Origin: an uncultured Spirochaetota bacterium
GTDB taxonomy: Bacteria; Spirochaetota; UBA4802; UBA5550
Reading direction: 5' to 3'
Length of the DNA stretch: 64,000 nucleotides
NCBI GenBank assembly: GCA_937872225.1
Contig: CALMRZ010000028.1
Span: 1-64,000, forward strand
The position numbers and the translations under genes are program-made. The notes under the pieces were generated by a model, which saw only the letters and a program-made list of their open reading frames with translations, searched no databases and had not been told where the DNA came from. Shown in pieces: positions 16,614 to 41,889 of this stretch (position 1 is its first letter; every line of letters starts with the position of its first letter).

Positions 16614-18743
16614 TCATGCCACCAGCACCACCGTCGACATTTTCCTCACATAATAGATGGTTCCCTCAAGATATGGCTCCTTGCCGGCTTCAAATATGTC
16701 CCCGGGCGGCTCATTGGCGGTGTCAATCGCCACTTTCCATCTGCCGCCGGACGGCGCAGGGGGTATTTCGAATTTCCTGTTGATCCTCCCGCTGTGAAAT
16801 ATGATGTACAGGTCATTGTCGGGTCTGCCGTCGGCTGACTCGCCGTAATACCCGCAGAGCAGCATGGCAATGGACCGGCTCTCGGGCCTCCAGTCGGGTT
16901 CGCCGGCCCTGAATCCGTGCCACGAAATGTCGGGATGGGCCTTCCCGTTACGGGCTTCCCCGGTGAAGAAGCTGCCCTTGCGGAGGACCGGGTGATCTTT
17001 CCTGAAGCGTATCATCTCCTTTGTGAAGCGGAAGATGTCCATGTTGGCGTCCATCAGACGCCAGTCGACCCAGGATATCTCGTTGTCCTGGCAGTAGGCG
17101 TTGTTGTTCCCCTTCTGGGTCCTCCGGAACTCATCGCCGCCCAGGAGCATCGGGATCCCCTGGGAGAGGAATAGTGTGGCGATGAAGTTGCGGATCTGCC
17201 TTGTCCTCATCTTCGTGATGAGCTTCGTGGCGTCCGGGCCCTCGACGCCCAGGCTGCAGCTCAGGTTGTGGTCCTCGCCGTCGGCATTGTCCTCGCCGTT
17301 CTCGATGTTCCGTTTCCTCCGGTAGCTCACCAGGTCGTTCAGGGTGAACCCGTCATGGCAGGTGACGAAGTTGATGCTCTGCAGCGGTCCCTTGCCGGCC
17401 GCGCCGTACAGGTCTGAACTGCCGGTGACGCGGGTCGCGAAATACCCGACGCTGTTCGGGTCGCCGCGCCAGAACCGCCGGATGTCGTCGCGGTACCTGC
17501 CGTTCCACTCTGCCCACCGGCCCGGGAACTCGCCCACCTGGTAGGCCCCGGCGGCGTCCCACGCCTCGGCGATGATCTTGGTGTTCCTGAGTATCGGGTC
17601 CTCGTGGATGACCTCTATCAGGGGCGGGTTGCTCATGATGCTGCCGTTCTGGTCGCGCCCCAGGATCGAGGCCAGGTCAAAGCGGAACCCGTCGATGTTC
17701 ATGTCGATGACCCAGTAGCGGAGTGCATCGAGGATGAACTCGCGCACCAGGGGATGGTTGCAATTGAAGGTGTTGCCGCAGCCGGAAAAGTTGGTGTAAA
17801 AGCGCCGGTTCTCTTTCAGAATGTAGTAGATGCTGTTGTCTATGCCGCGGAAGGAAACCGTGGGCCCGGTCTCGTCGCCCTCGCCGGTGTGGTTGAATAC
17901 CACGTCGAGGATGACCTCAATGCCCGCCTCGTGGAAGGCGCTCACCATGTCCCTGAATTCCGCAACCTGCTGCCCCATGCTCCCGGCCGAGGAGTAGGAG
18001 CCCTTGGGAGCGAAAAAAGCCATGGTATTGTAGCCCCAGAAGTTCTTGAGGCGCTCCCCGGTGCGGGGGTTCACGTTGGTGTTGTCGTCCTCGTCGAACT
18101 CCTGCACCGGCATCAGCTCAACGGCGTTGATGCCCAGCTCCTTTAGGTAGGGGATCTTTTCCGCGAGGCCGCGGAAGGTCCCGCCGTGGGCCACCCCGGA
18201 CGATTCATGGCAGGTGAACCCCTTCACGTGGAGCTCGTAGATGATGTAGTCCCGCTCCGGTATCCTGAGGGGCATGCCGTGGAGTATCCGCGGCCGGTCC
18301 AGGGCGATGCAGCGGGGCGTGTAGGGGATACTGCTTGACGTTGAAAAGGAAAGGTCCAGGTCCGGAGACCCTGCGTCATAGCCCTGCGCCATGGTGAGGT
18401 CCCACCGGCGGGTCCCGGTTATGGCCCGGGCGCAGGGGTCGATGAGGAGCTTGTTCCGGTTAAAACGGTGTCCCTTTTCCGGCTCATAGGGACCGTCGAT
18501 GGAATAGCCGTAGAGCTGCTGCACCGGCAGGCCCTCCACCAGGATGTGCCAGATGTCCCCGGTGCGGTGGAGCTCCGGGTCCAGGGGCACCTCGATGAAG
18601 GGCGAATCCGCCTCGTCCGACTCGAACAGGAGGAGCGTGACGGAGTGGCAATGCCTGCTGAATATCGAAAACTGTATGCCGTTCTTGGTGACATGCGCAC
18701 CCAGGGGCAGGGGAGACCCGGGCATGGTTTTCAGGTTCCGCAT
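16614..18743 (-). CDS. glgX: Glycogen debranching enzyme (isoamylase/GlgX type)
   Basis: 709-residue GH13 enzyme that hydrolyses alpha-1,6 branches in phosphorylase-limited glycogen. An N-terminal CBM48-like domain (about 10-110, with YGYSIDGPYEPEKGHRFN) precedes the TIM barrel. Visible catalytic regions are DVVFNHTGEG (region I), DGFRFDLASIL with the nucleophile Asp (region II), IAEAWD with the acid Glu (region III) and TCHDGFTLNDL (region IV). The length is usual for GlgX/TreX. It starts 13 bp after the stop of the DUF1573 gene on the same strand, so the two are probably co-transcribed although functionally unrelated. Confidence 0.95.
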   Translation of the reverse strand: MRNLKTMPGSPLPLGAHVTKNGIQFSIFSRHCHSVTLLLFESDEADSPFIEVPLDPELHRTGDIWHILVEGLPVQQLYGYSIDGPYEPEKGHRFNRNKLLIDPCARAITGTRRWDLTMAQGYDAGSPDLDLSFSTSSSIPYTPRCIALDRPRILHGMPLRIPERDYIIYELHVKGFTCHESSGVAHGGTFRGLAEKIPYLKELGINAVELMPVQEFDEDDNTNVNPRTGERLKNFWGYNTMAFFAPKGSYSSAGSMGQQVAEFRDMVSAFHEAGIEVILDVVFNHTGEGDETGPTVSFRGIDNSIYYILKENRRFYTNFSGCGNTFNCNHPLVREFILDALRYWVIDMNIDGFRFDLASILGRDQNGSIMSNPPLIEVIHEDPILRNTKIIAEAWDAAGAYQVGEFPGRWAEWNGRYRDDIRRFWRGDPNSVGYFATRVTGSSDLYGAAGKGPLQSINFVTCHDGFTLNDLVSYRRKRNIENGEDNADGEDHNLSCSLGVEGPDATKLITKMRTRQIRNFIATLFLSQGIPMLLGGDEFRRTQKGNNNAYCQDNEISWVDWRLMDANMDIFRFTKEMIRFRKDHPVLRKGSFFTGEARNGKAHPDISWHGFRAGEPDWRPESRSIAMLLCGYYGESADGRPDNDLYIIFHSGRINRKFEIPPAPSGGRWKVAIDTANEPPGDIFEAGKEPYLEGTIYYVRKMSTVVLVA

Positions 18744-18756
18744 GTCGCCCTCCGCG

Positions 18757-19122
18757 TTACTTGACCTCGACAGTCAGTGTCAGCTTAACGGCGGCCTGAT
18801 CCGGGTCATTGGTATAGACCATGACCGACTTGGTCAGCTTTCCCGGATGGGTGCCGGTTTTTAATGTTACTTCAATTTCTCCGCTGCCTCCGGCAGGGAT
18901 GTCCTTCTTGGAAAGAAGGACGCCGGTGCAGCCTCACCCGGCCGATATTTTATCGATAAGGAGCGTGCCGTCACCCAGGTTTTTAAAGGTGAACACGTGC
19001 TTTACTTCAATATTCTGTTCCTGCACGCCGAAATCATGGGTCGGCCGGTCAAACTGGATCTTCGGCTTGCCGTTGCAGAAAAGGGCCGCCGGCACCAGGA
19101 GCAGCACTAGCAGTTTTTTCAT
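18757..19122 (-). CDS. DUF1573 lipoprotein with in-frame TGA (candidate selenoprotein)
   Basis: 121 codons from ATG 19122, which is preceded by a perfect AAGGAGG. The signal MKKLLVLLLVPAALFC suggests lipidation at Cys16. The reading frame meets TGA at 18936-18934 (codon 63) and then continues without interruption for 58 codons to TAA. Both halves match one DUF1573 domain: KIQFDRPTHDFG and FKNLGDGTLLIDKISAG before, GCTGVLLSKKDIPAGGSGE and TKSVMVYTNDPD after. The TGA falls on the first cysteine of the family's conserved S-C-G-C-T motif (here G-U-G-C-T), the position where selenocysteine replaces cysteine. A stop mutation or sequence error is the alternative. It lies directly upstream of glgX. 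Confidence 0.75.
18901..18921 (-). promoter_or_regulatory. Hairpin 12 nt after the in-frame TGA (possible SECIS)
   Basis: On the coding strand a perfect 9-bp stem GTCCTTCTT / AAGAAGGAC with a TCC loop begins 12 nt downstream of the TGA, the usual distance for a bacterial SECIS. A further CCGGC/GCCGG pair could extend it. The apical loop lacks the usual G, so this is not a textbook SECIS. Confidence 0.4.
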
Positions 19123-19357
19123 AGGGAAAAGCCTCCTTAAACGCATATGATAGATGCTCCCGGGATTTTAAATTATCAAGCATTTTTTTAACCTACCGGG
19201 GCTCTGTATTTGAAATTGAAAGAGGGTTCGCCTGATCTTAATATCAAATATTCAAAAAAAAGAAATTTTTTGAAAAATGATGTAAAGTAATCCTACATCT
19301 CATCCGACCATATAGATGATTATTATTGATACACTCCTATCAAAATTTACCAGGTTG

Positions 19358-19400
19358 AAGGCTTTTGCAGCTCGCACTCCTGCAAAAGCCTTTTATTTTC
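19358..19400 (+). terminator. Strong rho-independent terminator with no gene before it
   Basis: A perfect 13-bp stem (AAGGCTTTTGCAG / CTGCAAAAGCCTT) is followed by TTTATTTTCTCTT on the plus strand. It sits in the divergent gap 19123-19506, about 110 bp before the next plus-strand gene and with no coding sequence upstream. It may end a small RNA that starts in the gap, or attenuate the YciO gene's leader. A weak promoter candidate has TTGAAA at 19270. Nothing else was seen in this gap. Confidence 0.75.
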
Positions 19401-19506
19401 TCTTCACCTGCCTGCCGGCCCGAATCTCAATTTTGTTTAATAATATTTTAACGCCTTATATACGATAATATATATAACAATTTATGAATAGGAAGGGCCT
19501 CCGCCA

Positions 19507-20172
19507 ATGAGTTCAACGGGAGTCCTTGAAAGACCAGGAAGCATGATATTCGTCATCAATGAACAGAACCCCCAGAAACGGCTTATCGACAAAGCCGTTG
19601 AAGTGCTGAAGCAGGGGGGCGTCATAGTGTACCCCACCGACACCGTGTACGCCTACGGCTGCGACATCAACGACAAGCGGGCCATAGAGAAGATCTACTG
19701 GATCAAGCATATCGGGCGCAACAAGCCCCTGAGCTTTATTTTCAGCGACATTTCGGAGATCAGCGAGTATGTCAGGAACATTTCCGACAGGGCCTTCAAG
19801 ATAATGAAAAAGGCCTTCCCGGGCCCCTATACCCTCATATTCAACGCCACCAAGCTGGTGCCGAAGGTGGCCATTACCAACCAGAAGACGATCGGGGTCA
19901 GGATCCCGGACAACAATATCGCCATGGAGCTGGTGCGGACCCTGGGGCGGCCCATCATGTCCGCCAGCGTCAGCACCTCCACCGGGGAATATATTGTGGA
20001 CCCCAAGGACCTTGAAAAGATTTACCGGAACGAGGTGGACCTGGTCATAGACGCGGGTCCGAAGGTTTCCGAGGTATCCACGGTCATTGACCTCACCGAC
20101 GGCAACCCCGTCGTGTTGCGGGAAGGAAAGGGGGCGATTTTTTTTAACTTTACAAGGGACGGCGTGTTCTAA
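19507..20172 (+). CDS. YciO/Sua5/YrdC-family protein
   Basis: 221-residue member of the threonylcarbamoyl-AMP synthase family, which makes the precursor of tRNA t6A from threonine, bicarbonate and ATP. Matching motifs are GGVIVYPTDTVYAYGCD near residue 38, RNKPLSFIF, FPGPYTLIFNAT, IGVRIPDNNI and PIMSASVSTSTGE. Conservation fits the shorter YciO branch better than full Sua5, since the C-terminal Sua5 domain is missing. YciO function is less well established. The first start (19507, after GGAAGG) adds a 12-residue tail; MIFVINEQN at 19543, with AGGAAG before it, is also possible. Confidence 0.8.
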   Translation: MSSTGVLERPGSMIFVINEQNPQKRLIDKAVEVLKQGGVIVYPTDTVYAYGCDINDKRAIEKIYWIKHIGRNKPLSFIFSDISEISEYVRNISDRAFKIMKKAFPGPYTLIFNATKLVPKVAITNQKTIGVRIPDNNIAMELVRTLGRPIMSASVSTSTGEYIVDPKDLEKIYRNEVDLVIDAGPKVSEVSTVIDLTDGNPVVLREGKGAIFFNFTRDGVF

Positions 20173-41694: not shown

Positions 41695-41889
41695 ATGAAA
41701 ATAACAAAATCAACAAAAGCCCCCGACGCAATAAAACAATCCCCGAATATCATGAAGGTATTCAAAAAATACGACCTCTACTGCCCCCGGTGCAAGGGAA
41801 TCGGCGAGGACACGGTGGAAAAAATCGCCATCTGCAACGGCATGGACGTGCAGGCCTTCGTGGACGAGCTCAACAGCGCGCTGGAATGA
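41695..41889 (+). CDS. DUF1858-like small redox protein
   Basis: 64-residue protein resembling the DUF1858 domain: PDAIKQSPNIMKVFKKYDLYCPRCKGIGEDTVEKIAICNGMD, with a CPRC pair at about residues 30-33. It lies 1 bp before the rsmD start, so translation is coupled, although no functional link to 16S methylation is known. It may belong to a wider redox set with the other DUF1858 protein at 16338. Confidence 0.75.
   Translation: MKITKSTKAPDAIKQSPNIMKVFKKYDLYCPRCKGIGEDTVEKIAICNGMDVQAFVDELNSALE

Follow-up and report, generated by a model that had tools for sequence, protein, structure and literature searches.

Whether an in-frame TGA triplet terminates a protein or encodes selenocysteine (Sec) is the question raised by a small DUF1573 gene within the window, the whole stretch of 64,000 nucleotides of Spirochaetota DNA that was analysed. 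A sequence-only reading had proposed a probable new selenoprotein here, while noting that the hairpin behind the TGA lacks a canonical loop G and that the window holds no selenocysteine genes. From the gene itself, the conservation of its UGA, its Cys homologues, the decoding machinery and the RNA hairpins, we infer that Sec is inserted at codon 63, and the gene almost certainly encodes a small exported DUF1573 selenoprotein with Sec at this UGA.

The open frame lies on the minus strand, an orientation left unstated in the sequence-only reading, whose counts are exact: a Shine-Dalgarno motif precedes an ATG (19122–19120), followed by UGA at codon 63, 58 further sense codons and a terminal TAA (18759–18757). 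The read-through product matches PF07610 over the entire model (positions 1–98 of 98; E 8.1e-24; 83.9 bits), and the two halves flanking the UGA thus form one DUF1573 domain, as had been proposed. The features of the locus are collected in Table 1.

Table 1. Coordinates of the Sec-DUF1573 gene, its RNA hairpins and its neighbours within the window.
Feature	Position	Strand	Basis
Sec-DUF1573 gene, ATG to TAA, 121 residues, Sec (very probable) at 63	18757..19122	(-)	sequence + profile match
Shine-Dalgarno AAGGAGG	19132..19138	(-)	sequence
Hydrophobic export signal, residues 1-15, ahead of Cys16 (possible lipidation, weak lipobox)	19078..19122	(-)	sequence + alignment
DUF1573 domain, residues 22-120, Ig-like fold	18763..19059	(-)	profile match + structure comparison
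UGA codon 63, very probably read as selenocysteine; TGC in Cys homologues	18934..18936	(-)	homologue comparison
Cys65 codon, partner in the Sec-Gly-Cys motif, 33/33 Sec genes	18928..18930	(-)	alignment
Hairpin H1, 9-bp stem, G-free UCC loop starting at +22 after UGA	18901..18921	(-)	folding + synonymous test
Hairpin H2, core CUGCC-GGA-GGCAG at 18884-18896, GG loop start +43 after UGA; putative SelB-binding part	18881..18898	(-)	
Isoamylase-type gene (CBM_48, alpha-amylase), 13 nt downstream, kept neighbour in family	16614..18743	(-)	
Divergent Sua5/YciO/YrdC-type gene, kept neighbour in family	19507..20172	(+)	

The genome to which the window belongs (4.69 Mb in 95 contigs, 97.7% complete) carries a full Sec system. 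SelA is detected at 370 bits on contig C72, with the tRNA-Sec gene (anticodon TCA) immediately upstream and a SelB of 604 residues, including its winged-helix domain, immediately downstream; SelD resides on contig C64 and itself contains an in-frame UGA in 6/6 genomes of the genus. The window contains no tRNA genes, and the lack of Sec genes within it is borne out, the system being located on these other contigs. All four genes expected of a bacterium with selenoproteins (selA, selB, selC and selD), for which a genome-wide search had been recommended, are therefore present, and with SelA, SelB, SelD and tRNA-Sec the organism is equipped to decode UGA as Sec. The same system weighs against reassignment of UGA, or its leakage, to another residue such as Trp or Gly. 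The frame that stays open behind the UGA would suit such a reading, but UGA also serves as an ordinary stop in this DNA, ending 18 of the 37 long ORFs in the window, and the UGA position aligns with Cys in homologues; we regard reassignment or leakage as very improbable.

Comparison across relatives provides the second line of evidence. A Sec-DUF1573 gene with exactly one in-frame TGA occurs in 6/6 genomes of the genus, where the relatives are 59–79% identical, and UGA-containing forms extend to most genomes of the family and to several other families of the order. In total, 33 distinct Sec genes from five families of one spirochaete order place the UGA at one codon, always within a Sec-Gly-Cys motif, and five Cys homologues (L015, L025, L026, L087 and L101) have TGC at that codon. 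Homologues from Bacteroidota and Chlorobiota likewise carry Cys at the Sec position. The alignment that had been called for thus confirms that the TGA replaces a conserved cysteine. Moreover, the downstream half of the gene, whose loss in relatives would have spoken against a selenoprotein, is kept: dN/dS, estimated from the few pairs that are not saturated, is about 0.2–0.3 both before and after the UGA, and this half is under purifying selection. A broken gene or sequencing error, in which UGA is a chance nonsense change, had some initial appeal with a codon one change away from TGC or TGT in a draft genome. It is refuted by the conservation of the UGA, which recurs in 33 independently assembled genes, as well as by a dN/dS well under 1 beyond the UGA and by hairpins that occur in the UGA forms only; we consider it scarcely credible.

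The distribution of the gene and of SelA varies among the genomes compared. One genome (G006) carries a Sec copy and a Cys copy side by side. Another (G008, 72% complete) has only the Cys form, with SelA not found, and in a third (G007, 81% complete) the Sec gene is present and SelA was not found, which counts against the selenoprotein reading. Both SelA and Sec-DUF1573 are missing from four genomes of family f4; in family f2, SelA is mostly present and Sec-DUF1573 is absent. Plasmid searches returned Bacteroidota matches only, and a search of viral contigs returned no matches.

The machinery, conserved UGA, Cys homologues, selection and hairpins uphold the earlier proposal of a selenoprotein; its claim to novelty at the family level does not stand. 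DUF1573 selenoproteins carrying UGC appear in the tables of PMC9312934 and PMC13188914, with credit given to Zhang and Gladyshev 2007, and PMC2398784 lists them as OS_HP2 (pfam07610, UxC), so that Sec-DUF1573 (OS_HP2) is a family catalogued since 2007–2008 and not a new one. OS_HP2 (PF07610; NCBIfam NF041425) shares the PF07610 domain and Sec-Gly-Cys with the window protein but is known from the deltaproteobacterial symbiont of Olavius algarvensis, whereas the window gene comes from another phylum, Spirochaetota. The window protein combines the two published marks of a DUF1573 selenoprotein, PF07610 (at the 83.9 bits given above) and UGC/UxC (Sec63-Gly-Cys65). Against NF041425 (OS_HP2_seleno) it scores 76.2 bits (E 1.9e-21), below the curated cut-off of 100 bits, and for this reason we class it among the DUF1573 selenoproteins while leaving it outside NF041425. 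The Sec-DUF1573 family gains an order of mostly uncultured Spirochaetota, within which natural Sec/Cys swaps open the Sec-Gly-Cys motif to testing. What appears to be new is the RNA signal, with its unusual two-hairpin layout. No description of such an element was found in the literature surveyed, which did not extend to the original 2007 Olavius symbiont paper, and published members may share it.

The first hairpin, H1, is the 9-bp stem-loop that had been pointed out 12 nt after the UGA (GUCCUUCUU-UCC-AAGAAGGAC), and its loop indeed contains no G. The second, H2, escaped the sequence-only reading; in the window gene it is CUGCC-GGA-GGCAG, occupying alignment columns 41–53 counted from the U of UGA. 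The hairpins of each gene were compared with 300 synonymous recodings of its peptide. H1 of the window gene is more stable than its recodings (z -3.7, p 0.007), and across the Sec genes the mean z is -2.8, with 27/33 at p 0.05 or lower. H2 yields a mean z of -2.15 over the same genes, with 24/33 at p 0.05 or lower. Among the Cys genes, neither H1 nor H2 exceeds synonymous expectation (0/5 for each). Both hairpins are thus selected beyond the protein sequence and are absent from the Cys homologues.

Covariation within H2 centres on the pair formed by columns 42 and 52. Its 5′ partner is the freely variable third position of a Pro codon, and its 3′ partner opens the codon that follows Gly-Gly and encodes Ser, Glu, Arg or Gln. 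This pair is U-A in 16 genes, C-G in 13 and G-C in 2, and is mismatched in 2; with a 5′ base that is synonymous, such a mix of three pair types would be difficult to obtain in another way. In an H2-only count over a larger set, the covariation score was reached by 0/500 shuffles and all slid versions scored lower, with counts that are inflated by kinship among the genes. H1 is retained through register shifts (for example L016, L020 and L075). Because its register shifts between genes, H1 was not recovered by RNAalifold over the whole element, and fixed-register pair counts miss it; for H1 and H2 together in the family set, such counts gave no clear covariation above shuffles.

The published bSECIS model (PMC13188914) calls for a G within the first two nucleotides of the loop and for 16–37 nt between the UGA and the apical loop, and further limits the stem to 4–16 bp and the MFE to -7.5 kcal/mol or lower. 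Both hairpins of the window gene fall within the stem and energy limits (H1, 9 bp and -11.9 kcal/mol; H2, 5 bp and -10.2 kcal/mol). H1 also has suitable spacing (21 nt) but no G in its UCC loop, and H2 has the G in its GGA loop but sits too far away (42 nt); for these reasons, neither hairpin alone fits the published model. The same contrast extends across the Sec genes: a G occupies the first two loop positions of H1 in 6/33 genes, the H1 loop being unconserved in sequence, and those of H2 in 32/33, and the loop lies at +19 to +23 for H1 and starts at +42/+43 in nearly all genes for H2. The arrangement therefore shares with the consensus stem-loops right after the UGA and, in H2, a G-rich apical loop, but differs from it in that a further conserved hairpin separates the UGA from the G loop, which begins 43 nt beyond the UGA. 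The earlier concern over the missing loop G of H1 is probably answered by the invariant GG loop of H2.

We lean towards a bipartite SECIS shared across the order, in which the GG loop of H2, 42 nt from the UGA, would be bound by SelB and would act only through H1 folded in between, the H1 loop sequence not being required; as a whole, such an element fails the consensus used by SECIS finders. Specifically, SelA, SelD and tRNA-Sec would produce Sec-tRNA, which SelB would bring to UGA codon 63 to yield the Sec-Gly-Cys motif. The two-hairpin element would direct this recoding, with SelB presumably contacting the GG loop of H2, and H1 would shorten the path so that H2 comes near the decoding site. 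Since H1 has the spacing without the G and H2 the G without the spacing, the simplest view is that SelB would need the G-containing loop, which would normally lie in H2, and a division of labour between the two hairpins is somewhat favoured. If true, the bipartite element would extend the spacing rule for bacterial SECIS and explain concretely how finders that rely on the consensus can overlook such genes.

Alternatively, H1 alone could be the SECIS, with a non-canonical loop accepted by the SelB of this lineage; H2 would then be either an auxiliary stem or a side effect of the conserved coding sequence for PAGG. The H1 loop position at +19 to +23 lies inside the published spacing, and the synonymous signal of H1 is the stronger of the two. 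The unconserved H1 loop, rarely bearing the G, speaks against this reading, as does the covariation of the H2 stem at a synonymous site. Furthermore, the SECIS hairpins of other selenoprotein genes in the genus (selD, formate dehydrogenase and AhpC type) all have that G, in loops starting at +17 to +26: GGUCC-GGU-GGACC and relatives for selD, GUCGCC-GGUCU-GGCGGC for formate dehydrogenase, and UUUCGGC-GGUC-GCCGAAA, or AGUU loops, for the AhpC type. In the only gene that lacks H2 (L091), the H1 loop is GGA, which counts towards SelB needing a G loop, although one exceptional gene lends thin support. A single 9-bp H1 SECIS is accordingly not preferred; we retain it as a possible but doubtful rival to the bipartite element.

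The hairpin of that exceptional gene (L091, G125:C14) reads CCUUCUC-GGA-GAGAAGG, which looks like a transfer of the loop G from H2 to H1. In the genome carrying the window (G000), an in-frame UGA with a canonical G-loop hairpin is found in three more genes, namely SelD (C64), a formate dehydrogenase-like gene (C21) and an AhpC/TSA-type gene (C65) (L047, L061 and L103). A read-through scan of the remaining window, judged by eye, gave no other convincing selenoprotein. A YCPRCKG motif occurs in a short ORF (about 64 aa; 41695–41889), which falls below the 100-aa ORF cut, ends in TGA and shows no sign of a meaningful continuation beyond it.

The predicted structure (pLDDT 87.8) adopts an Ig-like sandwich of the ASH/PapD kind, in which Sec63-Gly-Cys65 occupies a loop of the β-sandwich between predicted strands 54–61 and 66–70. 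Model comparison assigns the same fold to ASH/PapD-like Ig domains, including 2qsv of Porphyromonas gingivalis (E 5.7e-8, TM 0.70 by query) and HYDIN. The profile alignment with 2qsv has no Cys at the CGC positions, and the Sec-Gly-Cys motif gains no functional assignment from these matches. By analogy with other selenoproteins, Sec63 and Cys65 would most likely form a redox pair in the cell envelope. The earlier description as a lipoprotein holds in part: Cys16 does follow the hydrophobic signal, but Phe occupies position -1 and the Cys is missing from several orthologues. Judged from the sequence, lipidation at Cys16 is possible, but it is not a general trait of the family.

Within 16614–20172, the YrdC-type gene is divergent from Sec-DUF1573 and the isoamylase-type gene follows on the same strand, an order kept in the family. 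Both neighbours are conserved, yet they point to no role for Sec-DUF1573, with no functional link evident. For one further gene (L099), two in-frame TGA codons are listed. Additionally, some genomes in families f3, f5, f6 and f7 of the order encode a second Sec paralogue with the same H1/H2 element (L093–L098), which is distinguished by the absence of Cys at the end of the signal peptide, a mature start resembling TAFFFSKPSIxF and a longer C-terminal half.
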